DNA of 64,000 bases from Branchiostoma floridae (Eukaryota; Chordata; Leptocardii; Amphioxiformes; Branchiostomatidae), in the NCBI RefSeq assembly GCF_000003815.2, contig NC_049984.1, positions 24,838,841 through 24,902,840 on the forward strand, read 5' to 3'. Within the stretch, counting starts at the first letter, position 1. Every line of letters begins with the position of its first letter. Shown piece by piece: positions 1 through 62,962 of this stretch. Made by a program: the position numbers and the translations under genes. Under the pieces are notes generated by a model. That model had not been told where the DNA came from. It saw nothing but the letters and a program-made list of their open reading frames with translations, and did not search any database.

Positions 1-210
1 GTCCAGGATAAGGTCCCCGGATAAGGTCCCCGGATAAGGGACCAGGATAAGGGACCAGGATAAGGGACCAGGATAAGGGACCAGGATAAGGGACCAGGAT
101 AAGGGACCAGGATAAGGGACCAGGATAAGGGACCAGGATAAGGGACCAGGATAAGGGACCAGGATAAGGGACCAGGATAAGGGACCAGGATAAGGGACTA
201 GGATATTTAA
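1..210. repeat. 13-bp minisatellite at left window edge
   Basis: About 16 head-to-tail copies of the 13-mer GGATAAGGGACCA. The first two or three copies are the variant GGATAAGGTCCCC. The array runs off the left edge, so its full length is unknown. It ends in a short AT insertion near 205-215. Confidence 0.95.
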
Positions 211-6209: not shown

Positions 6210-7060
6210 GCATGCCAGGGGGTACTGCACAGGTAGCAGTTGGATGGCTTGCTTGTATGGAGACCAGGTAAGGTACCGTACAGGTAGCAGTTGGATGGCT
6301 TACTTGTTTGGAGACCAGGTAAGGTACCGTACAGGTAGCAGTTGGATGGCTTACTTGTTTGGAGACCAGGTAAGGTACAGCACAGGTAGCACTTGGATGG
6401 CTTGCTTGTATGGAGACCAGGTAAGGTACCATACAGGTAGCAGTTGGATGGCTTGCTTGTATGGAGACCAGGTAAGGTACTGTACAGGTAGCAGTTGGAT
6501 GGCTTACTTGTTTGGAGACCAGGTAAGGTACCGTGCAGGTAGCACTTGGATGGCTTGCTTGTATGGAGACCAGGTAAGGTACCGTACAGGTAGCAGTTGG
6601 ATGGCTTACTTGTTTGGAGACCAGGTAAGGTACAGCACAGGTAGCACTTGGATGGCTTGCTTGTATGGAGACCAGGTAAAGCACCGTGCAGGTAGCACTT
6701 GGATGGCTTGCTTGTCTGGAGACCAGGTAAGGTGCCGTACAGGTAGTAGTTGTATGGCTTGTTAGTCTGGAGACCAGGTAAGGTGCCGTACAGGTAGCAG
6801 TTGGATGGCTTACTTGTTTGGAGACCAGGTAAGGTACCGTGCAGGTAGCAATTGTATGGCTTGTTAGTCTGGAGACCAGGTAAGGTACCGTACAGGTAGC
6901 AGTTGCATGGCTTGTTAGTCTTGAGACCAGGTAAGGTACCGTACAGGTAGCAGTTGCATGGCTTGTTAGTCTGGAGACAAGGTAAGGTATCGTACAGGGA
7001 GCAGTTGTATGGCTTGTTAGTCTAGAGATTAGGTAATGTATTATACAGGTACATTTTAGG
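6210..7060. repeat. 51-bp minisatellite
   Basis: About 16 tandem units of 51 bp, each containing GGATGGCTTACTTGTTTGG and GAGACCAGGTAAGGTACCG variants. Because 51 is divisible by three, both strands stay open for long stretches, giving 17-residue repeats (for example 6067-7074 on the minus strand). I regard these as artefacts of the repeat length. Every unit carries CAG/GTAAGG, a consensus-like 5' splice site. The array starts directly after the hAT-like MITE. Confidence 0.95.
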
Positions 7061-10380: not shown

Positions 10381-10789
10381 TTTCTAAAACTACAACATAT
10401 TGGCATCTGTAGACGAAAGGGTATCAAAACTAGCCTTATATATTGACCTACCCGTGCTGTTAACAGGTCCGATATTTCTCCATCCCTACGTACGTAACAA
10501 TCGATTCATCTAGTACCTGTCTTCAAAGGCGCAAAAGTACATGGTATTGTTCGTTTTCAGTACCCTTTAAAGTCACATAGACCACGTTTCAATCAACACA
10601 GGAACATCATAATTTGAACTAGGATAGCCTATGATATTGTGTAACATAGAATAAAGTCATTTATTAGGTGACCTATATATCTTCATTATTTTTTTGTAAA
10701 AACATATTAAGAACTTGTCAGCTGCCCTCTGGCGACATATACCAAAAGTGCAGAATTTCGTCACACACCAGATAGAATTAACTTTTTTT

Positions 10790-12025
10790 GGTTCAAATGA
10801 CCAAATTTAGCTTTTTTTGACAAAAAGATGGTTTACAAGATTTCAGGAAATTATTCTGCACCCAACAAAGTTGGTTTGAAGGAAATCGGACACCGTTTGT
10901 CGACATCTCATTTTTGGGTTGAAATCTGCAATTTTTGGTTCATAGGGCCAAATTTACATTTTTTGACAAAAAGAGGGCCTACGTGATGTCAGGAAATTAT
11001 TCCGCACCCAATAAAGTTGGTTTGAAGGAAATCGGACACTGTTTGTCGACATTTCATTTTTGGGTTGAAATCTGCTATTTTTGGTTCATAGGGCCAAATT
11101 TACATTTTTCGACAAAAAGAGGGCATATTTGATGTCAGGAAATTATTCCGCACCCAACAAAGTTGGTTTGAAGGAAATCGGACACCGTTTGTCGACATCT
11201 CATTTTTGGGTTGAAATCTGCAATTTTTGGTTCAAAGGGCCAACTTTACATTTTTCGACAAAAAGAGGGCCTACGTGATGTCAGGAAATTATTCCGCACC
11301 CAATAAAGTTGGTTTGAAGGAAATCGGACACCGTTTGTCGACATCTCATTTTTGGGTTGAAATCTCCAATTTTTGGTTCAAAGGGCCAAATTTACATTTT
11401 TCGACAAAAAGAGGGCATACGTGATGTCAGGAAATTATTCCGCACCCAACAAAGTTGGTTTGAAGGAAATCGGACACCGTTTGTCGACATCTCATTTTTG
11501 GGTTGAAATCTGCTATTTTTGGTTCATAGGGCCAAATTTACATTTTTCGACAAAAAAAGGGCCTACGTGATGTCAGGAAATTATTCCGCACCCAATAAAG
11601 TTGGTTTGAAGGAAATCGGACACCGTTTGTCGACATCTCATTTTTGGGTTGAAATCTGCAATTTTGGTTCAAAGGGCCAAATTTACATTTTTCGACAACA
11701 AGAGGGCATACGTGATGTCAGGAAATTATTCCGCACCCAACAAAGTTGGTTTGAAGGAAATCGGACACCGTTTGTCGACATCTCATTTTTGGGTTGAAAT
11801 CTGCAATTTTTGGTTCAAAGGGCCAAATTTACATTTTTCGACAACAAGAGGGCATACGTGATGTCAGGAAATTATTCCGCACCCAACAAAGTTGGTTTGA
11901 AGGAAATCGGACACCGTTTGTCGACATCTCATTTTTGGGTTGAAATCTGCTATTTTTGGTTCATAGGGCCAAATTTACATTTTTCGACAAAAAGAGGGCA
12001 TACGTGATGTCAGGAAATTATTGAT
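10790..12025. repeat. 146-bp satellite array, ~8.5 units
   Basis: Head-to-tail units of 146 bp containing GTTTGTCGACATCTCATTTT and ATGTCAGGAAATTATTCCGC. Successive units start at about 10895, 11041, 11187, 11333, 11479, 11625, 11771 and 11917. The unit beginning near 11625 has a 1-bp deletion. Each unit opens a ~65-codon frame, but 146 is not a multiple of three, so the frame shifts every unit and the frames are not genes. Variants alternate between neighbours, suggesting higher-order structure. Confidence 0.97.
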
Positions 12026-12029
12026 TTAC

Positions 12030-13130
12030 CCTTAACTCAAAAATATTGATGATGGCTATTTACCTGCCTTAAAAAGTATGGACTTCAGAAGAAAATTTTT
12101 CCCAGGGACCATTGTTTATTTCTGATGACTTGACTGCAGCAAAATAAAGCTTGACAAAAAGGATCTAAGTAAATAACTGTCTACCTGGAAAATAGAGGTC
12201 AACTTGTTCATACCTTTATATACAATGCACAACTGCATGTGGTCATGTGTTTGCACTTATTTTTGTATATGCATGCAAATAAGGAAAACTCATGAATTAC
12301 CATTATGTATCGTACATAGGGTGAAAAGCTCTACACTTAAAGCATGAAATGTACTGTGTTTTTAAAATCATTTCATCAGGAATAGCTCAACGTTATATAC
12401 CTTAACATTTCCTGGAGAGCATCTTAAACAGACAATTAATCCACCCCTCTCCATATAGCTACCTGTTCAATGAAATTTTGATAAAACACAGAATTTGAAC
12501 ATTTAAGAAAATGCTCTGCTTCCTTGGTCAATCAGTCATGCCTCAGGGACTTACAGTTACTGACAGCATACATAGTCCTGAGGTATATAATTGCAAGCTA
12601 TTTGTAAATATGGATATGCAAAATGGTTCCTCACAACATTGCATCTAGGATACTGCGTGCTACATATTAGCTTTAACATGACATCTACAGTCCAGAGAGC
12701 TATGATTTCAAAGCATCTAAATCTGAGTCATTGTAATTGTCATAGTAACACAGTGCATTGCAAAAAGCATGCTTCTACTAGCTGTTTATCTTTTTACAAA
12801 GAAATTGGGACTTCGTTAATGTTCATTATAACTCTCCCATTTGCATGTTGTAGAAGCAGGTAATCCATTGCATAATCAGCTTCTCATCTGCTGTCATCTC
12901 ATGTGCACTGATGGCCTGCCTGGGTTGAGTGTCATCAGCACCTATAGCAACAACATTACAAATTAAAATATTTCAGTGTTGTAATGGACATGATTCTGGT
13001 GAAGGTTGCATTAGCAATGTCACTGTATAGCCTTGTTGTCAGTGCCTATTGAAATACATCTGATAGCAAGTATCGTGTCCTGTGATCTTATGACAACAAA
13101 TAAAGACCTAATGAAATACAGGGAGTATTG
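12030..13130. other. spacer without a gene
   Basis: The open frame at 12591-12863 has no recognisable domain. No repeat or RNA gene is recognised here. Confidence 0.45.
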
Positions 13131-32075: not shown

Positions 32076-34042
32076 GTAAATGTTCATAATCTTGTCTTGG
32101 AATTTTTGCGCTAGCTGTTTTGACTCTATATCATACAATGGCACCGATACAAATTATGATAGTGCTCTGTTTTCTTGTTGATTTCACTTTCGGATGACGA
32201 TTCGGTGCGCCATTTACGGTTAGAATGAAGTATTTTTGAACTGATCAGTGACCACACACGGACTTAATTAGTTCCATGCAAGCAAGCGCGGCTCTCATAC
32301 TCCCCACTTCGTAATTTGCCAGATTAGATCGAATACAGTATCTGTTGATACAAGTGATCGGCGTTTCCGCTAGTGGAGCGCCCCGTCATCAAAGGAACGC
32401 TTCGACTAAGAAGGCTGCTTTAAACATTGCGACGCAAATTTTGCTGAGGAATCGGGAAAAAAAAACGTTTGAAGATGCATGCCCGCCGCCATAATTTTTT
32501 TTTCATTTTACACGGCGTGGGGACGCGAGCTATGGTCAGCGATTCACACCCCTTTGTTTTAAGCTATTGTTATGCTTGCTTCCAAACAAGCAAACGGCGT
32601 CTTGCGCATATTTGATCTCATTAAAATAAGCGATTTTTGAAAGTCGGGTTCTTTGTTGTTTCTTTAACCAATAAAAACTCGATTTGTTTTCCTTGTTCCC
32701 GTTGAGACTGAAATAGCTCTATTTGTTGGTCACAGATGTTTTAAAAAAATGCTGGTGCTATGATGTATGTATACTTTTTTTCACCGGGTCTCGTACGTTT
32801 ATACTATAATTGATAAGCCTCGATCTATAGTTGAGTAAGGTTTTATCAACTGTTCTGCGTCATGGTTTTGTCGTCCTTGCTTATGAATACATTTATAGTC
32901 CAATAAACTTGTTGGCTTGTGCTAGCGTCATTACTATGAAGCCATGAAGCATGTGGCACTTGAATGTGGACTACGCGCCGAGGATCGACTGAAGAGGAAG
33001 GATAGCGCACAGATAAAAGACTTGAACATTTCAAATTTCAAATCTGATGAAAGCTCCTTGTTCAAATTTCAAATCTGATGAAAGCTCCTTGTTCAAATTT
33101 CAAATCTGATGAAAGCTCCTTGTTCAAATGTGACATGACTACTAATAAAAATAACTTTAGGATAATTGCCGCTTTGGGACGACTGAAGCAGTCTCTTGTA
33201 GTGGCTCTATGTCGCTAAAATCGTTGCCAAGCCTTTTCTAAAATGTGAATGTATATTTTGGACTTTAGTCGTCAGATACAGAGACCACTGTCACTACACA
33301 GATGACGTCAGCAGAGACGGACCGGGAGAAGGCGCCGACCACAGCCACTACACAGATGACGTCAGCAGAGACGGAGAAGGCGCCGACCACAGCCACTACA
33401 CAGATGACGTCAGCAGAGACGGAGAAGGCGCCGACCACAGCCACTACACAGATGACGTCAGCAGAGAAGGAGAAGGCGCCGACCACAGCCACTACACAGA
33501 TGACGTCAGCAGAGAAGGAGAAGGCGCCGACCACAGCCACTACTCAGATGACGTCAGCAGAGACGGAGAAGGCGCCGACCACAGCCACTACTCAGATGAC
33601 GTCAGCAGAGACGGAGAAGGCGCCGACCACAGCCACTACTCAGATGACGTCAGCAGAGACGGAGAAGGCGCCGACCACAGCCACTACTCAGATGACGTCA
33701 GAAGATACAGAGACGGAGACCCCGACGTCTGCTAATTGTGACTGCAAAGGATGTACCATGAAAGGTCCTACTGCGTTTCAGCCAAAAGATCCTGCAGTCC
33801 TCGGTACATTTCAGAACAAGGGCAGAAAGTTCCTCTCCAGCTGGTACACGGACCGCGGGTGGGTCACACTGTGCACACAACGGCGCAAGGTGTTCTGTGC
33901 CACTTGTCGCTACGCTACACAACGTAAGCTCTTCGCCCTTTCTACTAAAGTCGAACCTGCCTTCGTATTTTACAACTCGAGTCTGAAACAGAGAAAAAGA
34001 AAGCAGTTATATCAATTAAAGCATTTCAATCTTTGTTGGTGA
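31926..34042 (+). CDS. TTF-type zinc-finger protein, hAT-related, partial
   Basis: Two phase-0 exons (31926-32075 and 33269 to at least 33964) join cleanly. Residues 1-50 are a basic tail with PTIPSIESFF, resembling the hydrophobic SFF motif near the N-terminus of many hAT proteins (and loosely a PCNA-binding PIP box). Next come eight Thr/Ala/Glu-rich 16-residue repeats (MTSAETEKAPTTATTQ). The last part has GRKFLSSWYTDRGW and VFCATCR, the conserved F, WY, W and FCxxCR pattern of the TTF zinc finger found before hAT dimerisation domains and in ZMYM-like host proteins. The open frame stops at 34042 without a catalytic domain. A donor-like TTC/GTATTT at 33964 suggests further exons, but none is seen before the next gene. 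It could be a domesticated gene, a transposon fragment or a pseudogene. Confidence 0.65.
33029..33121. repeat. 31-bp tandem repeat, 3 units, in TTF gene intron
   Basis: Three near-identical copies of a 31-bp unit containing AAATCTGATGAAAGCTCCTT. It lies in the intron, about 150 bp before exon 2. Confidence 0.95.
33269..33964 (+). CDS. TTF zinc-finger gene, exon 2
   Basis: Starts after TTGGACTTTAG, phase 0, first residues SSDTETTVTTQ. It runs through the 48-bp repeats into the zinc finger. The end at 33964 is a donor-like guess; the frame stays open to a TGA at 34040-34042. Another donor-like AAC/GTAAGC lies at ~33922, but using it would remove LFALSTKVEPAF, which resembles the family's conserved continuation. 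Confidence 0.55.
33302..33705 (+). repeat. 48-bp coding minisatellite carrying CRE palindromes
   Basis: Eight tandem units (the first 54 bp, the rest 48 bp), each starting ATGACGTCAGCAGAGA, plus a ninth partial start at ~33690. Every start contains TGACGTCA, the perfect cAMP response element bound by CREB/ATF proteins. The unit length keeps the reading frame. A minus-strand shadow frame is also open. Confidence 0.95.
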
Positions 34043-52504: not shown

Positions 52505-55500
52505 CTGTTAAAACAAGAAGGGCAGGTGTACGTGTTCATTTGATACAAGTTCCCGATAGCAAAACCTATTTCAAATCCATTGACATCGACAATCGCCGCC
52601 ATATTGGGATTCTGACACTTTCCTGTCTGGACACTTGGACACTTGTTTCCAGCTACAGTACCGTCATGGATTATTAGTCGGCGCTTCAGTACCGCCGAGT
52701 TGCTAAATTGTAAAGGCACAATTTTGGAGGCAAAAATGTGCAATAAAGGTCTTCATTACAAACAGATCGGAATGGGTAGAGACTACTCTTCAAGTAGACA
52801 GCGCAAAGGGTAGAAGACGTAATAGTAACTCAACTGAAATTTGACGAAACTAAATTCACACGCGTCTTTGACCCACCAACACGGCGGTGGCCAAAATTAC
52901 GTTATATCACGTGACTACAAACACTTGGCAATCTTTCTGGGATTGCTGGACACACCGATACCGTTGATTTGAACATCCTTTCTGACAATTGCAACGCTAA
53001 ACAACTTCTAATTCTGCGTGCTAGTTTGCTCTGTTCTGGTGTTAGCTGTAAAATCATGTTAGCCAAACAAAGCTACATCTGATATAACGTCCTTGATCAC
53101 AGCAACAAAACCTGTCATTCATTTTTACTTTTTTTTTACTTTTTCTCCTGCAAGGGACGTTCGGACACGCATTCAAACTGTGTACTTGCTATGTATTTAT
53201 CCTTTGCTATTCATAAGTTTGAGTGTCTTGTGTAATATTTTATTTTTCAAAATGTAAAAGTGGCAGCGAGAACTTACGCTGTAACTTTGTCTTTGTTCAT
53301 TCATTTGTATTGTTGTTTCTTTCAATAAATAAAACAAACTCTATACCTGTAAGTTCCGTTGACGGTGATGCCGTGACAGGCGTCCAGGTCGTCGTGCACG
53401 TACAGGGTTCCGTCCTCCTTCCGCGGGCCGTAGATGGCGATGCCGTCAAACGCCACCCCCACGATGCCGGAAGCGCCCGAGTCACCCATGGCATTGTCCG
53501 GGAGACAGTTCGCCTCGTGGTGATAGTGGTAGCTGTGGAGGAAAAAAAAGTCACTCCAAAAGTCGGGTCTTTTGTCACTTATTTCAATACCCACATTCAA
53601 CGCTATCTTGTGAAAATACCCCTGCTATTCATGAATACAACGAGTTTGCATTTAACACCTTTTATAAGTTGATAACTTTGGTATTTATCATGGAAGCTCA
53701 TCTGTGATGGTAGCAAGCAGAGTACAATGCTAAACTTTTTTCCAACACAAAAAGTACACACGGATCAAATTTTCAAAGACCACTGAAGAAGGCAACAGTG
53801 GTCGTTGAAATTTGGACCCGTATATTTTTGGATTGGAAGAAAGTTTAGCATTGCACTAAAAATCTGGTACATTGTATTTGTATTTTCTACTTGGATGGAT
53901 CAGAAGTAGCCTAGGTGCCATCCTCCGATTTTTTAGTAAAGAATGTAAAAGGTTCCGTTTTTTTTCCCACTCAACTTTACCTTTATGAATGCTTTAAAGT
54001 ATGCTTAAAGATCGGATTTCGTACAGTGTCAGGAGCAAATTCGTGGGAAGGTCCTCTATGTTTGACAGCAACTTGTTTCTGTATCTGTATCTATATAGCC
54101 GGTATAACCGCCCTTCGGCGTAACACACCAGCTTCGCAGGCACGCGGTGCGGCAGCAGCTGGTTATATTACACTGAACGATCCGTCACAACCAACTTCTG
54201 CACATATCTGCAAGCGTTCTTTAAAACTATCCAGAGAAGATGCCCCTACTGTGCTTGGTGATAAAAAGTTCCACTCTACGATAGTTCTGGGAAAATGCGA
54301 ATTTTTGAACACATCAATCCTAGCTTGGTTACTCTGGTACTTGAAGTCATGGCTGTTTCTTGTTCTTTTTTGAGCTGGTATTAGATACTTATCAGTCGGT
54401 ACGTCCACTGTTGGACGCCCGTTTGAGGCACTTGACATGGTCACGTAAAAAAAAGATTAAAAAATTGCGGTGGGCTAAATCAGGCTGTGAAAGGTGTCCT
54501 CGTAATCCCCACGAGTTGTTCTATCTGCCTTGTGAATCTCAAGCGATGGACTTTTACGAGAAAGTATTTATTTGATGTCAAAGTTGACCGATTTTCGACA
54601 GCTTTTTCCTATGGTTTCGCCATTGTTTTCAAGCCGAAATACGCACCGCATGGGGGTTTCGGGGTGTCCGCTTAGTGGGCGAGGTTCAACTGTTTCCGGG
54701 TCACGCTATACCGTTGCGGCAGTCACTCGGGACCTCACTCGGTAGTGTACACAAGTACTTTTGATGGTGCTGTCAGCGTTTTAGCATGTCACGAAGTAAT
54801 ATTGAAATGTCTTTGAAGTATAAGACAGCACTATGATCTGTAAGGTGTTATTCCAATAGGTTGCGTCGTGGGTAAAGTGAACTGTAGGTTAACGTTAGCC
54901 GACGAAGGCTTTTTGCATCTGACTGTTAACTGTTGAAGATATTAGATACATTGCTCGCGCCTGACTGAGGGATTAACTAAGATTAGAACAGTATATAGCT
55001 AATTAATGGCGAAAAACGTGTTCAGAAGAGAAACTGTGCCAATTTGAATGACACTAAAAATAGCACCGTAAGAATTGTAACGTTATATAGCTAACTTGTA
55101 GCGGAAAACGTGTTCAGAAGACAAACTGTGTCAATTTGAATGACACATCTAAAGGACCGTTGTGCGCTGCATTAAGTGTATATAGCAAACTAATAGCGAA
55201 AAACGTGTTCAGAAGAGAAACTGTGTCAATTTGAATGACAGACTTACAGAACAGTAAGAACTATAACGTTATGTAGCTACATGTAAAAGCGCAAAACGTG
55301 TTCAGAAGTCAATTTGAATGACACACTTGCAGATAGCGCAATAAGAACTGTACATAGCTAACTCATAGCGAAGTGTTACGTGTTCAGAAGACAGACTGTG
55401 TCAATTTGAATGACACACTTGCAGATAGCGCAATAAGAACTGTATATAGCAAACTAATAGCGGAAAAAGTGTTCAGAAGACAAACTGTGTCAATTTGAAT

Positions 55501-58500
55501 GACACACTTGCAGATAGCGCAATAAGAACTGTATATAGCAAACTAATAGCGGAAAAAGTGTTCAGGAGACAAACTGTGTCAATTTGAATGACACACTTAC
55601 AGGTAGCGCAATAAGAAATGTACATAGCTTACTCATAGCGAAGTGTAACGTGTTCAGAAGACAAACTGTGTCAATTTGAATGACACACTTGCAGATAGCG
55701 CAATAAGAACTGTATATAGCAAACTAATAGCGGAAAAAGTGTTCAGGAGACAAACTGTGTCAATTTGAATGACACACTTGCAGATAGCGCAATAAGAACT
55801 GTATATAGCAAACTAATAGCGGGAAATGTGTTCAGAAGACAAACTGTGTCAATTTGAATGACATACTTGCAGATAGCGCAATAAGAAATGTACATAGCTA
55901 ACTAATAGCGGAAAAAGTGTTCAGGAGACAAACTGTGTCAATTTGAATGACACACTTGCAGATAGCGCAATAAGAACTGTATATAGCAAACTAATAGCGG
56001 AAAAAGTGTTCAGGAGACAAACTGTGTCAATTTGAATGACATACTTGCAGATAGCGCAATAAGAACTGTATATAGCAAACTAATAGCGGAAAAAGTGTTC
56101 AGAAGACAAACTGTGTCAATTTGAATGACATACTTGCAGATAGCGCAATAAGAAATGTACATAGCTAACTAATAGCGGAAAAAGTGTTCAGGAGACAAAC
56201 TGTGTCAATTTGAATGACACACTTGCAGATAGCGCAATAAGAACTGTATATAGCAAACTAATAGCGGAAAAAGTGTTCAGGAGACAAACTGTGTCAATTA
56301 AAATGACACACTTACAGGTAGCGCAATAAGAAATGTATATAGCTAACTCATAGCGAAGTGTAGTGTTCAGAAGAGAAACTGTGTCAATTTGAATGACACA
56401 CTCACAGAACAGTTAGAACTATAACGTTATGTAGCTACATGTAATAGCGCAAAACGTGTTCAGAAGACAAACTGTGTCAATTTGAATGACACACTTGCAG
56501 ATAGCGCAATAAGAACTGTACATAGCTAACTCATAGCGGAAAAAGCGTTCAGGAGACAAACTGTGTCAATTTGAATGACATACTTGCAGATAGCGCAATA
56601 AGAAATGTATATAGCAAACTAATAGCAGAAAAAGTGTTTAGAAGACAAACTGTGTCAATTTAAATGACACCCTTACAGGTAGCGCAATAAGAAATGTACA
56701 TAGCTAACTCATAGCGAAGTGTAACGCGTTCAGTTGACAAACTGTGTCAATTTGAATGACACACTTGCAGATAGCCCAATAAGAACTGTATATAGCACAC
56801 TAATAGCGGAAAAAGTGTTCAGGAGACAAACTGTGTCAATTGAATGACACATTTATAGAACAGCGATGTATGTAAGAACTGTATATATAAAACTTAAAGA
56901 AAAAAAACGTGATCAGAAGACTACCTGTGTCAATATGACACATTATAGAACAAAGCTGTAAGAACTGTATATAGCAAACTAATAGCGAAAAACCTGTTCA
57001 GGGGACAAACTGTGTCAATTTGAATGGTACACTTGCAGAATAGCGCCGTAAGAACTGTATATACATGTAGCTAGCTTAAAGCAGAAAGCGTGTTCAAGAG
57101 ACAAACTGTGTCAATTTTAATGACACATTTACAGAATAGCGCCAAAAAACTGTGTATAGCTAACTTAAAGCACAAAGTGAGTTCAGAAGACTACCTGTGT
57201 CGATTTAAATGACACACCTATAGAATAAGCACTGTTACAACATGTATATATATTTAAGTAACAGCGCAACGTGTTCAAGAGACAAACTGTGTCAATTTGA
57301 ATGACACATTATAGAACAGTGCTGTAAGAACTTTATATAGCAAACTAATAGCGAAAAACGTGTTCAGGAGACAAGCTGTGTCAATTTGAATGACACACTT
57401 ACAGAATAGCGCCGTTAAAACAGTATATAACTAACTTAAAGCGAAAAGTGTATTCAGTAGACTACCTAGCTGTGTCAATTTGAATGACAGATTTATAGAA
57501 AAGTGCTGTAAGAACTGTATATAGCGGAAAACGTGTTCAGGGGACAAACTGTGTCAATTTGCATGACATACTCACATTATAGCGCCCTAAAAACAGTACA
57601 TAGCTAACCAATTTAAAAAAAAAAACGTGTTTAGGATACAAAATGTGTCTATGTGAATGACACATTCATAGAACAGCGAGGTAAATTTATTTTGACGAAA
57701 GCTTGCTCTAACAAAAACTTTTTCAATCGGACGATCATACTATTTAATTATCGCTTTACTTTACTTGTGTGTCATATGAATTGACACAGTTGCCCACCTA
57801 ACGAAGTTTTCTGTTGTAAAATGGTTATATGCAGTTCTTACAGCGCTTTTCTTTAGGTGTGTCATACAAATTGACACAGTTTTGTGTCCTGAACACATTA
57901 GCCGTTAAGATTTAGTCATACATTTGTATACTATACGTTTGGCGCTATTCTACAAATGTGTCGAAACAAATCGACACAGCTGTGCTTTTGACTACGTTTT
58001 CAGCAATAAAGTTGTTAGGTACAGCCCAAAGTACACTTTTTACCAGTGTGTCATATAAATTGACACAAATTCTTTACTGTCCAATTTTTTCCGTGATCAA
58101 TTTTACACACGTTAAACAGCGCTTTTCTAATTGTGGGTGATATAGATTGACACAGTTGTCCCCCGGAAAAACGTTTTCCATTTTTAAGACACGGTTCAAA
58201 CATCGCTTACAAAGGTGTCAGACAAATTCACACAATTTCCCTCCTGAAAAAGTCGTCCGCCATCAAGACAATTTTACACTGATTTCACATCGTGTTTCTA
58301 CAAGTGTGTCATATGAAATAACAGTTGTCCTCCTGACAAGGTTTTCTGTCATTTGATACAGTTGTCGACCTGACCGTGAGGGTTTTCCGTTTTGTGAAAT
58401 TTTAATAAGTTTTAAAAAACTTGTTAATTGACACAGTTGTCGTCCAAGTCTTCCATCAGTTTAATACTGTTTAATCATCGCACTAGTGTGCCATACTATC

Positions 58501-61500
58501 AGTGACATTTGTCCACCAAAGTTTCCGTCATGAGGCAGTTTTATACTGTTTAACACTCGGTTATTAATTGCAAAGCCGTCCTCCTGACAAAGTTTTCTGT
58601 TATAAACTATTGTGTTAAGTAATGTGACAAACTAGCAAACTGAATAGATATGCCTAAATCGTATAATCATTCGATTGAAAAAGTTTTCGGCAGAGCGAGT
58701 TTTCCGTCATAAGATAGTTATTATGCGTTTCAAAAGTGTGTCATATGATTGACACAGTTTTCAGCTCAGACAGCGCAGTACTAGATTTGACAGTTTACTT
58801 GAACAAGTTAGTATTTCAGTTACTTTAAACCCTACCATGGTCCAAACTCCAGTAATCAGTTGTTAATTGATATGAAATAACCGCATCTAAAGTCATATAT
58901 ATACGAAGGAACGCCATTTAGTTCGTAAGAAGGGACCTTAGAACTTGTCTGACACACTTGCAGAAAAGCGCTGCCTGAACCGCGCTATTATGTAAGTGTG
59001 TCATTCATATTGACACAGTTTGACTTCTGAACACGCATTAATATTCCGCTTTAAGTTAGCTATATACAGATCTTACGGTGCCATTATATAAGTGTGTCAT
59101 TCAAATTGACACAGTTTGTCTCCTGAACACGTATTTTGCTATTAGTTAGCTCTATACAGTTCTTACGGCGCTAATATGTAAGTGTGTCATTCAAATTGAC
59201 ACAGTTTGTCTCCTGAATACGTTACACTTCGCTATGAGTTAGCTATATACATTTCTTATTGCGCTACCTGTAAGTGTGTCATTCAAATTGACACAGTTTG
59301 TCTCCTGAATACGTTTTCGCTATTAGTTTGTTATATACAGTTCTTTGGGCGCTGTCTACAAGTGTGTCATTCAAATTGACACAGTTTGACATTTGAACAC
59401 GCATTCCGCTTTAAGTTAACTATATACAGTTCTTACAGCGCTATTCTATAATGCATTGTGTCATTCAAATTGACACAGTTTGTCTCCTGAACATGTTTTT
59501 CGCTCCTAGTTAGCTATATAAAGTTCTTACGGCACTATCCTGTAAGTGTGTCATTCAAAGTGACACAGTTTGACTCCTGAACACGTTTTTCGCTATTAGT
59601 TATCTATATACAGTTCTTACGGCACTATTATGTGAGTGTGTCATTCCAATTGACACAGTTTGACTCCTGAACACGTCTTCCGCTATTAGTTACCTATATA
59701 CAGTTCTTTTAGCTTTCTTCTATAAGTGTGTCATTCAAATTGACACAGCTTGACATTTGAACACGCATTCCGCTTCAAGTTACCTATATACAGTTCTTAC
59801 AGCGCTATTCTATAATGCATTGTGTCATTCAAATTGACACAGTTTGTCTCCTGAACACGTTTTTCGCTATTAGTTAGCTATATACAGTTCATTCAGCTTT
59901 GTTCTGCAAGTGTGTCATTCAAATTGGCACAGTTTGACACCTGAATACGTTTTCCGCGATTTCTTCGCTATATACAGGTCTTGCATTGCTGTTCTATAAA
60001 TGTGTCATTCAAAGTGACACATTTTGTCTCCTGAACACGTTTCTCGCTATTAGTTAGCTATATACAGTTCTTACGGCGCTATTATGTAAGTGTGTCATTC
60101 AAATTGACACAGTTTGACTCCTGAACACGTCTTCCGCTATTAGTTACCTATATACAGTTCTTTTAGCTTTCTTCTATAAGTGTGTCATTCAAATTGACAC
60201 AGCTTGACATTTGAACACGCATTCCGCTTCAAGTTACCTATATACAGTTCTTACAGCGCTATTCTATAATGCATGCATTGTGTCATTCAAATTGACACAG
60301 TTTGTCTCCTGAACACGTTTTTCGCCATTAGTTAGCTACATACAATCCTTACGGCACCATTATGTAAGTGTGTCATTCAAATTGACACAGTTGGACTCCT
60401 GAACACGTTTTTCGCTATTAGTTAGCTATATACATTTCTTTCAGCTTTGTTCTATAAGTGTGTCATTTAAAGTGACACAGTTGGACTCCTGAACACGCAT
60501 TGCACTTTAAGTTACCTAATAAGTATGTACAGTTTTTTTACAGCGCTGTTCTATGAATGCATCATTCAAATTGACACAGTTTGTCTCCTGAACACGTTTT
60601 TCGCTATTAGTTAGCTGTATACAGTTCATTCAGCTTTGTTCTATAAGTGTGTCATTCAAATTGACACAGTTTGTCTCCTGAATACGTTTTCGCTATTAGT
60701 TTGCTATATACAGTTCTTTGGGCGCTGTCTACAAGTGTGTCATTCAAATTGACACAGATTGACATTTGAACACGCATTCCGCTTCAAGTTAGCTATATAC
60801 AGTTCTTACAGCGCTATTCTATAATGCATTGTGTCATTCAAATTGGCACAGTTTGTCTCCTGAAGATGTTTTTCGCTCCTAGTTAGCTATATACAGTTCT
60901 TACGGCACTATCATGTAAGTGTGTCATTCAAATTGACACAGTTTGACTCCTGAACACGTTTTCCGCTATTAGTTAGCTATATACAGTTCTTTTAGCTTTG
61001 TTCTATAAGTGTGTCATTCAAATTGGCACAGTTTGACACCTGAATACGTTTTCCGCGATTACTTAATAGCTATATACAGGTCTAACATCGCTGTTCTATA
61101 AATGTGTCATTCAAAGTGACACATTTTCTCTCCTGAACACGTTTCTCGCTATTGTTAGCTACATACAGTTCTTACGGCGCTATTATGTAAGTGCGCCATT
61201 CAAATTGACATAGTTTGTCTCCTAAACACGTTTATCGCTATTAGTTAAGCTACATACAGTTCTTACGGCGCCAATATGTTAGTGTGTCATTCAAATTGAC
61301 ACAGTTTTTCTCCCCAAGGAGGTCTCCCGAACACGTTTTCCGCTATTAGTTCCCTGTATACACTTCTTACAGCACTGTTCTATAAATGTGTTATTCAAAT
61401 TAACACAGTTTGTCTCCTGATGTCTACGAGAATTCCAGTTAGTTCGTTCGGAGGGGACCTTACAACCGTTGCAGATTCGCAACGTGGGCCGAGACGATAC

Positions 61501-62962
61501 GAACAAACACAAACTTAAAAAACGTTCTGCAAGTTCAAACATACTGTCGCCAAGAGTCCCTTAACAAACCCAATTTAACAATATGCGTAAGCCTGACTTG
61601 AATCCTCCTCTACCGAACCTAGCGCAGACTGAGACCGTCAAGATACCTGGTGACCCGCGTTCAATGACCTCACTCGTACGACCCGGAAGTATATGATCGT
61701 AATCGGTTGCACGGAAACCCCCATGCAGTGCGTAATCGAGGCCGAAAACAGGCATAAAGAGCCAGTTTGAAGGCTAACTTTGACTCTTCAAATCTCATCC
61801 CGAAATAATATTTGAATCAACACGAGTACTGTAGGCGATAGAACAACTCGTGGGGATTACGTGGGCACCTTTGACAGCCTGATTTGAGCCACCGCGATTT
61901 TTTAATCTTTTTTTTACGCGACCATGTCAAGTGCCTCAAACGGGCGTCCAACACCACTACTAAGCCTATTGGTCATTTTGTACTTACTCTCCCCGTTCGG
62001 CGGGGTGTCCGTCGCAGGCGTCCAACACCTCGTTCTCCACAGCGTCCTGGCACTCGCGGTTGAAGGGGTTGTAGATAGGGACGCCGTTCACGGCCATGCC
62101 GATAGGACCCATACCCAGGCAACCGGGGGTGGACGCCGTGGTGGGCGTCACTGGGATACGGAATGTGTGACTCTGGGGTGGGGGTTAGAAAAAAACCATA
62201 AAACAAGCGTTCGGTATACTAAAATAGTATTGTATAAGTTCACCTATGTTCGCGAGATTTTTCTGTTTGCGATATTTGCTACTGACCCTCTCTTCGCGAA
62301 CTTGTTTTATTGTGTAATCTACACTCTATATATCGCCCCCCTCCCCAAACGGTTCCCCAAATTGCTGTAGAACAATTTGAACCAGTCACAGTTGACATGG
62401 GTAATGGCATATGTTAGAATCAACAAAATATCTGTAAAGCGGTGGCAGTTACTTGAGTCCAAAGAGGGTCTATTTTGGACAAGGCCACGGGCTTTCACTA
62501 GGTGAAAATCCGCCATTTTGAAAAGTAGTAGTTGCCATGGCAACCAGAGACCACAGAACTTAAAACTCTCCCATTTCTGTAAGTTTGGTCCAAAGCCCAA
62601 CCACAACAAAAAATTAAGGAAAATCGATTTTTGTTGTGTCTGGACAACTTTTCCCGATTTTGCTTGTTTTGTTGGGTTTTTTTTTGTTTTTCTTTACAGA
62701 CATCAGCTCTAAATTCTCTCACCTGTTCTGTGAGATCGTTCGGGTTGCCTGTACCGGGGTACGTCCCCGTGGCGTGGTCTGGGATCCCGTTCGACGTCAG
62801 CACCAGAGCGTCGCCGTCCTGGGTGATGGACACCGTCCCCTGCTTCCCCGAGTTGGTCTCGGTGTGGGTACGGGCCTGGAAGGCGGCGATCTCGTCCGCC
62901 GAGAGACCGAGCACCGTGGCAGGGAGGACGGCTAACACAAGGGCTGCACAGAACCGGAACAT
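52294..62962 (-). CDS. secreted YHYH-domain protein, possibly GPI-anchored
   Basis: Four exons on the minus strand (62723-62962, 61988-62172, 53347-53532, 52294-52504) join in phase (0,2,2) to 273 residues. Residues 1-20 are a signal peptide (MFRFCAALVLAVLPATVLG). The YHYH domain (named for its motif; a family of unknown function in bacteria and eukaryotes) covers ~80-225. A first module, GMGPIGMAVNGVPIYNPF...LDACDGHP, leads to DYHYHHEANCLP at 142-153. A second, GIVGVAFDGIAIYGP...LDACHG, leads to RYHMTSDFPYFIGCYHG. The paired DAC-G and Y-YH motifs look like an internal duplication. The tail ends in a hydrophobic stretch (AVTLAAATGLGLVL, ~251-264) after small residues, like a GPI signal. Intron 2 (53533-61987) holds the foldback element. 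Molecular function is unknown. Confidence 0.88.
53347..53532 (-). CDS. YHYH gene exon 3
   Basis: After TTTCCTCCACAG, reads YHYHHEANCLPDNAMGDSG and GVAFDGIAIYGPRKEDG, then DDLDACHGITVNGTY, ending TTACAG/GTATAG, phase 2. Contains the name-giving YHYH motif. Confidence 0.92.
53724..53855. repeat. 132-bp near-perfect foldback
   Basis: Left arm TACAATGCTAAACTTTTTTC... is inverted at the right end as ...GAAAGTTTAGCATTGCA. The arms (~60 bp) pair with few mismatches around GACCACTG-AAGAAGGCAA-CAGTGGTC. Lies in YHYH intron 2. Probably a tiny MITE; a precursor-like RNA hairpin is possible but unproven. Confidence 0.85.
54163..54404 (-). pseudogene. non-LTR reverse transcriptase C-terminal remnant
   Basis: Minus-strand frame containing VDVPTDKYLIPAQKRTRNSH, then DFKYQSNQARIDVFKNSHFP, RTIVEWNFLSPSTVGASSLD and SFKERL. 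This is the typical C-terminus of CR1/L2-like reverse transcriptases (RNSHDFKYQ...R.DVFKNS.FPRT...WN.L...TV...SLD.FK..L). It directly abuts the foldback element, whose 4-bp target repeat lies at the junction, so the foldback element probably inserted into or beside this older fragment. Confidence 0.85.
54409..54680 (+). repeat. left terminal inverted repeat of foldback element
   Basis: Pairs with 61690-61953. The best-conserved part includes CACTTGACATGGTC, AAAAAAAAGATTAAAAAAT, AAATCAGGCTGT and TAATCCCCACGAGTTGTTCT. Further in, only patches such as CGCATGGGGGTTTC remain. Confidence 0.9.
54990..57690 (+). repeat. left satellite arm, ~30 units of ~89 bp
   Basis: Consensus phrases per unit: GTGTTCAGAAGACAAACTG, TGTGTCAATTTGAATGACAC, ACTTGCAGATAGCGCAATAA, GAACTGTATATAGC and AAACTAATAGCGGAAAAA. 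The middle units (55390-56300) are most alike, which suggests recent local homogenisation; the flanks diverge. Confidence 0.95.
57760..61430 (-). repeat. right satellite arm, ~40 units, inverted
   Basis: Same unit in reverse complement: GTGTCATTCAAATTGACACA, GTTTGTCTCCTGAACACG, TTTTCGCTATTAGTTAGCTA, TATACAGTTCTTACGGCGCT. Units nearest the centre (57760-58960) are strongly degenerate; 59090-61400 is regular at ~90 bp. Confidence 0.95.
61690..61953 (-). repeat. right terminal inverted repeat of foldback element
   Basis: Inverted partner of 54409-54680. It ends 35 bp from the 5' splice site of YHYH exon 2, so the insertion nearly touches the exon. Confidence 0.9.
61988..62172 (-). CDS. YHYH gene exon 2
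   Basis: After CCCCACCCCAG, reads SHTFRIPVTPTTASTPGCLG, MGPIGMAVNGVPIYNPF and VLDACDGHPAERG, ending GGAGA/GTAAGT, phase 2. The first YHYH-family module; its donor completes Asp with the first base of exon 3. Confidence 0.9.
62723..62962 (-). CDS. YHYH gene exon 1 (signal peptide)
   Basis: Eighty codons from ATG at 62962 to GAACAG/GTGAGA, phase 0. MFRFCAALVLAVLPATVLG is followed by LSADEIAAFQARTHTETNSG and ITQDGDALVLTSNGIPDHAT. Confidence 0.88.

Follow-up and report, generated by a model that had tools for sequence, protein, structure and literature searches.

The element at 54409–61953 of the stretch analysed here, 64,000 nucleotides of Branchiostoma floridae (assembly GCF_000003815.2, contig NC_049984.1, positions 24,838,841 to 24,902,840; hereafter the window), probably belongs to a young family of cut-and-paste foldback (compound terminal inverted repeat, TIR) transposons, which is apparently non-autonomous and most copies of which lie at a fixed distance from the motif CCGCCATNTTG. 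It consists of two face-to-face arrays of a unit of about 89 bp, enclosed by 117-bp TIRs with the ends TGT...ACA. A GCCAT-like CCGCCATNTTG was found on one side of 22 of the 27 copies of the family, with exactly ten bases separating the target site duplication (TSD) from GCCAT. Each unit of the arrays carries a 21-bp near-palindrome, TGTGTCAATTTGAATGACACA, the variability of which was lower than that of the remainder of the unit by a factor of about 3.6 (988 units). Neither the fixed-distance motif nor the conserved core was part of an earlier, sequence-only reading of the window, because other copies were needed to detect them.

Copies of the family and their target sites

The genome searched was the window's own assembly (513 Mb), a single assembly. 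With the terminal 32 bases as query and up to 3 mismatches allowed, 65 places were matched, and none by the reversed pattern used as a control. Loosening the query to the terminal 24 bases (again up to 3 mismatches; control: 1) returned the same 65 places and no further relatives. The 65 ends were sorted by position into 27 end pairs (3.9–17.2 kb), 3 ends on the small contig C341 and 8 unpaired ends. The shortest pair measures 3.9 kb, and no short derivative without arrays was encountered among the 27 pairs. A 122-bp query from the left TIR gave 97–100% identity in 29 of the best 40 of 134 matches, the window copy included. Twenty stretches of up to 10 kb were read, each of which contained array units and one or more TIRs of this kind; cores were present in both orientations in 19 of them, and L027, which was read in part, shows one orientation. 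The plan common to the copies is TIR, subterminal domain, plus array, minus array, subterminal domain, TIR. Among the 16 pairs examined (window copy included), both ends of L015 resemble the left and the right TIR to the same degree, and its left units are few (by flank 1 plus and 13 minus, by core 10 and 13); long runs of N lie inside L010 and L028.

An exact 4-bp TSD was found in 19 of the 27 pairs; three pairs agree in three of the four letters, and five in fewer. The exact TSDs are CCAC, GTAA (twice), CGCG, ATAG, TGAC, CTCA, TTCT, GAGC (twice), TTGC, TTGG, TCAC, TTTA, ATTG, ATTT, AACA, GCCC and TTCA. When the 54 flanks were compared among themselves, no similarity was found (E 1e-3), and the insertions are therefore separate events. 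The sequence-only reading had proposed a single mobile unit belonging to a multi-copy foldback family with 4-bp TSDs, and had named a TIR restricted to this locus as the outcome that would contradict it; with 65 ends against none in the control, 27 pairs and 19 exact TSDs, its proposal survives.

The mean pairwise difference between copies, determined from rows covering at least 90% of each part, was 1.4% for the left end (577 bp; 23 rows, 3 of which repeat a locus already included, hence 20 distinct loci), 1.95% for the right end (533 bp, 16 rows) and 1.9% for the centre (1270 bp, 12 rows). As the copies differ by about 1–2%, the family is young, and many copies are closer to one another than average alleles are at a lancelet heterozygosity of 3.2–4.2% (PMC12500494). 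In two older relatives (L030 with L038; L035–L037) the left subterminal domain is 81–84% like that of the window copy, and the arrays are present.

The recurring GCCAT was noticed when the flanks were read side by side. CCAT lies at offset 11 outward from the TSD in 22 of the 54 flanks, these belonging to 22 different copies; at the other offsets between 0 and 39 it occurs once each at 12, 28 and 29 and nowhere else. Relative to a base rate of 0.0027 elsewhere in the same flanks, the binomial p is 2e-42. The motif letters of the targeting rule are written GCCATNTT, 10 bp from the insertion, and the element ends of the family TGTTGGACGCCCG. The rule is obeyed by 17 of the 19 copies with an exact TSD (the window copy and L023, one base off, being the exceptions) and by five of the eight without one. 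The motif lies at the right end in 13 and at the left end in 7 of the 20 copies that could be oriented. Together with the visible side of three unpaired ends (L031 and L034 by script, L058 from the printed flank; three of eight, about 0.41 being expected per single side under the rule), 25 sites were available. Together they give C C G C C A T N T T G, in which CCAT is fixed by the way the sites were selected and the remaining letters could vary freely. Of the 8 YY1 letters CGCCATNTT, these sites match 6.76 on average, and 413 CCAT sites of the window 5.09 (p 7e-10). According to PMC7481187, the YY1 consensus is GCCATCTTG, its form in JASPAR is CGCCATNTT, and sites of this kind in the ends of ProtoRAG are bound by lancelet YY1. 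The placement of most copies ten bases from a motif bound by this host regulator suggests that the element may aim at gene-control sites.

Architecture of the window copy and its satellite arms

The exact termini of the window copy read TGTTGG...CCAACA. As the sequence-only reading had claimed, CCAC abuts both of them, at 54405–54408 (left TSD) and 61954–61957 (right TSD). The left TIR (TGTTGGACGCC...; 54409–54525, plus; from the TIR alignment and genome matches) and the right TIR (61837–61953, minus; from the TIR alignment) comprise 117 nt each and are 93% complementary. Inverted similarity inward of the TIRs is present as a 39-column block (score 38, best of 200 shuffles 27), and the previously assigned length of 115–270 bp was thus a fair description. 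The left subterminal domain (54526–54985, plus, 460 bp) is non-repetitive and 96–98% identical to most copies compared. It is followed by the left satellite arm (54985–57690, plus, about 30 units of about 89 bp), the arm junction with a degenerate inner right arm (57691–58960, minus, 1270 bp; full-length match of 96–98% in 11 other copies), the right satellite arm (58961–61420, minus, about 27 well-preserved units) and the right subterminal domain (61421–61836, minus, 416 bp). Both arms were delimited with Tandem Repeats Finder (TRF), a scan for the unit core and the positions of units located by their non-core part.

By TRF, an 89-bp unit is repeated 28.2 times in the left arm (54985–57525) and a 90-bp unit 25.4 times in the right arm (58982–61307). 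The core scan (at most 5 mismatches) returned 28 plus and 32 minus cores within the element, with a single switch of orientation between 57644 and 57768, and one weak match elsewhere in the window, at 12724. When located by the non-core part alone, 30 plus and 28 minus units were obtained, each followed by a recognisable core, some of these altered or shortened; one perfect copy of the core lies at 55127–55147 (plus). The two opposed arrays described in the sequence-only reading are confirmed by TRF, the core scan and the single switch. The inner right arm at about 57.7–58.96 kb is no separate spacer but a degenerate continuation of the right-arm array. A BLAST comparison of the element with its own window gave no match beyond the element (E 1e-3). 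Other tandem arrays were located in the window by TRF at 6221–7051 (51-bp units), 10785–12022 (146-bp units) and 33283–33713 (48-bp units).

For the comparison of core and remainder, units were chosen by their non-core part only, in order to avoid favouring conserved cores. From 1001 profile matches, 988 units at 21 loci were retained, the rest being dropped as short, partial or containing N. The pairwise difference was 0.054 in the core and 0.193 in the rest, and none of 20,000 column draws was equally low. In the 58 units of the window copy the values were 0.062 and 0.226 (0.213 without CpG columns), and 20,000 random sets of 21 other columns again included no value as low as that of the core. 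When 18 copies were taken one at a time, the most conserved 21-column stretch coincided exactly with the near-palindrome in 14 and overlapped with it in four. The core was recovered within 5 mismatches in 955 of the 988 units and not in the other 33. Its low variability suggests a bound site.

The mean distance between units of different copies was 0.144 for the left arm, 0.175 for the right arm and 0.177 across arms; on average, left units alone therefore stand apart. The nearest neighbours of 300 sampled units were in the same arm only for 253, in both arms for 36 and across only for 11. From these unit distances, the arms would already have differed from each other by the time the family expanded. 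Unit counts range from 9 to 40 (plus) and from 17 to 29 (minus) in ten young copies (L009, L011, L013, L014, L016, L019, L023, L024, L026 and the window copy), each with both ends in its stretch and at most 163 N; the incompletely read left arm of L018 holds at least 62. Given this wide range in young copies, array length changes more quickly than single positions do. Within the right arm, a 145-bp tract (59174–59318) is 94% like the left arm, and one unit within it differs by 3.3% from a left unit versus 9% from the nearest right unit; the tract is likely to stem from an exchange between arms, an event that is rare genome-wide (11 of 300 across only). The unit search gave 550 matches (best 40 of 91 candidates); those listed all lie inside pairs or no more than about 7 kb from an unpaired end, as compared by eye with the list of ends, and the satellite seems private to the element. 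Four comparisons of the unit with the TIR region gave one weak 23-column match, in the left subterminal domain and in opposite orientation (score 29, against at most 25 in 200 shuffles), and nothing above chance in the other three.

Search for a transposase and surroundings of the insertion

Nine of the longer interior frames of the window copy gave no Pfam match at E 0.1. Possible transposase genes were further sought in eight non-matching segments of seven copies and in the C341 contig, the segment of L027 being matched to Pfam and the others translated only. The 7.5-kb nested segment L027:411–7908 matched DDE_Tnp_4, HTH_Tnp_4 and YqaJ, with PHD below its gathering score. It is read as a nested transposon with its own ends (identified by eye), presumably similar to an ISL2EU element. 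In an older relative on C8, about 3.2 kb of the middle has no match to the window copy and contains no frame longer than 135 amino acids. The four unpaired ends outside the 40 scored TIR matches were ordinary right ends. A search with the target rule (AANATGGC, 14 bases, TGTTGG) gave 80 matches (control: 13), namely 13 family ends, 31 places of one repeat and 36 others; 20 of these 36 were read and no TIR of this kind was found in them. The repeat, with AAAATGGCACATAATGGGTGAATGTTGG at 31 identical places in the genome, is another repeat family that contains a YY1-like letter string.

At 61984–62184 (minus) a YHYH-type exon was recognised (Pfam PF14240, E 3.5e-5, 24.3 bits, the gathering score being 25), the end of which is about 27 bp from the right edge of the element. 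The element seems to lie inside an intron, beside a probable splice donor (assigned by eye). The 13-mer GGCGTCCAACACC, formed by the TIR end and the first TSD letters at 61943–61955, recurs about 60 bp away within the exon, at 62017–62029. The window copy alone among those with an exact TSD has no YY1-like motif at the expected distance or directly beside that position, and a TIR-like target may have drawn it to this site. A retrotransposon-like stretch with a gag-/protease-like frame (by eye; L034:1–2036) adjoins the right end of another copy.

Classification, rival readings and meaning

The element has the features of the foldback (compound TIR) class, that is, long inverted arms of tandem repeats, and many copies at unrelated sites with TSDs. 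Its 4-bp TSD (19 of 27 pairs) differs from the 8–10 bp of the Mutator foldback group, in which FB is counted, from the 7–8 bp of the P superfamily with Galileo, and from the 6–7 bp of Dada in small nuclear RNA (snRNA) and transfer RNA (tRNA) genes, the common target feature here being the YY1-like motif. Sola is defined by a 4-bp TSD, very variable TIRs and a DDD transposase (PMC10741241); the element is compatible with this definition in its TSD and TIR lengths, which alone were compared. Tetris, a foldback element of Drosophila virilis (PMC4079207), resembles it in layout: Tetris is non-autonomous, has a TIR domain followed by tandem repeats (TIR-220) in both arms, is without conserved open reading frames, and its autonomous partner was not found. 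Tetris differs in its 8–10-bp TSDs, its assignment to Mutator by its authors and the occurrence of its repeats in outside satellite-like arrays, and the available part of that source does not mention a target motif. The TIRs of Galileo are likewise long and contain tandem repeats, and extra sites for the THAP domain of its transposase are present in some of these repeats (PMC3688188, PMC3573991), the binding having been shown (PMC3688188); its copies are bounded by 7-bp repeats, its TIRs reach at most about 1.26 kb and hold two to four repeats, as against the 4-bp TSD and the 9–40 plus and 17–29 minus units found here in the well-read young copies. Tm1 of Meloidogyne (Mutator/foldback) also has composite TIRs with internal repeats, yet with a motif of about 14 bp, mostly 9-bp TSDs and no clear target consensus in the accessible text (PMC3169594). 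Dada is likewise strict in its choice of target, and Dada-U6 keeps a constant spacing between a motif and the TSD; Dada differs in its snRNA and tRNA gene targets, its 6–7-bp TSD and the absence of TIRs from Dada-U6 and Dada-U1 (PMC3706591). ProtoRAG produces a TSD of 5 bp. This lancelet transposon is linked to the same YY1 motif, but there YY1 binds the transposon's own TIR, whereas here the motif lies in the target (PMC7481187). No lancelet foldback element was found in the literature, as far as titles and the openings of abstracts tell, although the family may already have an entry in a repeat database; a literature match to the letters of the TIR and the core was not found either.

A local, immobile inverted duplication of a genomic satellite would account for the satellite-like interior of the element, and is rejected as almost certainly wrong in view of the 65 ends across the genome, the TSDs, the flanks without mutual similarity and the unit matches listed, all of which lie inside element copies or at element sites. 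Membership in Ginger1 or Ginger2, as a non-autonomous derivative, had been suggested in the sequence-only reading. In its favour are the TGTNR ends (here TGTTG), the 4-bp TSD and the TIR within 40–270 bp (here 117), and Ginger families are known in B. floridae (PMC2836005). The targets differ, being CCGG (75%) or CCGT/ACGG (24%) for Ginger1, measured on Hydra elements, and RTATAY for Ginger2, measured on Nematostella elements, and arms made of tandem arrays are not described in the portion of that source consulted (PMC2836005). The TSD has the length of that of Ginger1, but in none of the 19 exact TSDs its sequence (CCGG or CCGT/ACGG); TATA, as in the AT-rich RTATAY target of Ginger2/Tdd, is likewise found in 0 of 19. 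Ginger1 has a Gypsy-integrase-like transposase; neither an integrase nor any other transposase of the family was found in the frames and copies read. The suggestion is not supported by the target sequences, and such a membership is unlikely.

As regards the target, insertions might only favour open promoters, which are rich in YY1 motifs and in start codons reading ATGGC. The GC content of the flanks (0.46, window 0.40) agrees with this, and the YY1-like motif is a known promoter element. Such a preference should scatter the motifs, but 22 were found at one offset and at most one at any other from 0 to 39; promoter preference alone was rejected on this single offset and is very improbable. It is quite possible, if somewhat doubtful, that the transposase itself, with a zinc finger for instance, recognises CGCCATNTT at the target and makes its cut at a distance of 10 bp. 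The near-invariant spacing, with 22 pairs sharing an offset and L023 displaced by +1, is what a rigid complex would produce; against it, the motif letters are close to those of YY1, and AANATGGC is lacking in the window copy, which leaves no simple self-similarity of the Dada type. A bolder reading, held at slightly less than even confidence, is that promoter-bound host YY1 steers the integration complex, which would dock on CCGCCATNTTG and insert exactly one helical turn from it, and that the ends are paired through dozens of palindromic sites evolving as a private satellite.

For insertion beside the motif, a transposase supplied in trans would cut at TGT/ACA. The target complex would dock on the motif by way of YY1 already in place or of a transposase domain recognising the same letters, and the cut would fall about one helical turn from it; the nearest precedent found among DNA transposons for such a fixed distance is Dada-U6 (PMC3706591). 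The palindromic cores may be repeated sites at which the transposase or a host protein binds, assisting the pairing of both ends, a step for which Galileo, the nearest case for the arms, provides a precedent shown in part. Arm length would shift by unequal exchange, with the units mostly remaining in their own arm.

Several observations weigh against this picture. The window copy has an exact TSD and the motif on neither side; L010 and L041/042 are also without it, L023 is one base off, and L035/036 reads CCAC. The offset rule was derived from the flanks that were later counted, which makes the eight unpaired ends the only nearly independent check, and on five of these eight the visible side lacks the motif, the other side not being seen. 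For right-arm units, the distance within the arm (0.175) is hardly below that across arms (0.177). Paired changes in the two half-sites of the core numbered 2 (79 sites, weak hits outside units included), a value reached by 1740 of 5000 shuffles. Maintenance of the core as a hairpin by compensatory change is therefore not supported, and, as paired changes are not in excess, constraint on the sequence itself, for example as a putative bound dimer site, fits better. Finally, neither an autonomous copy nor a transposase was found in the copies and stretches read.

Targeting of retrotransposons through host DNA-binding proteins is known from Tf1 and TRE5-A, and Dada aims at small RNA genes (PMC3706591). 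In a limited search of titles and openings of abstracts on YY1 and the target choice of transposons, no DNA transposon at a fixed spacing from a motif of an RNA polymerase II transcription factor was found. If YY1 is the tether, the family would provide a natural system for aimed insertion beside promoters. With a short core that is kept constant amid drifting arrays, across hundreds of units in many young copies, the family also makes it testable why foldback elements bear long repeated arms.

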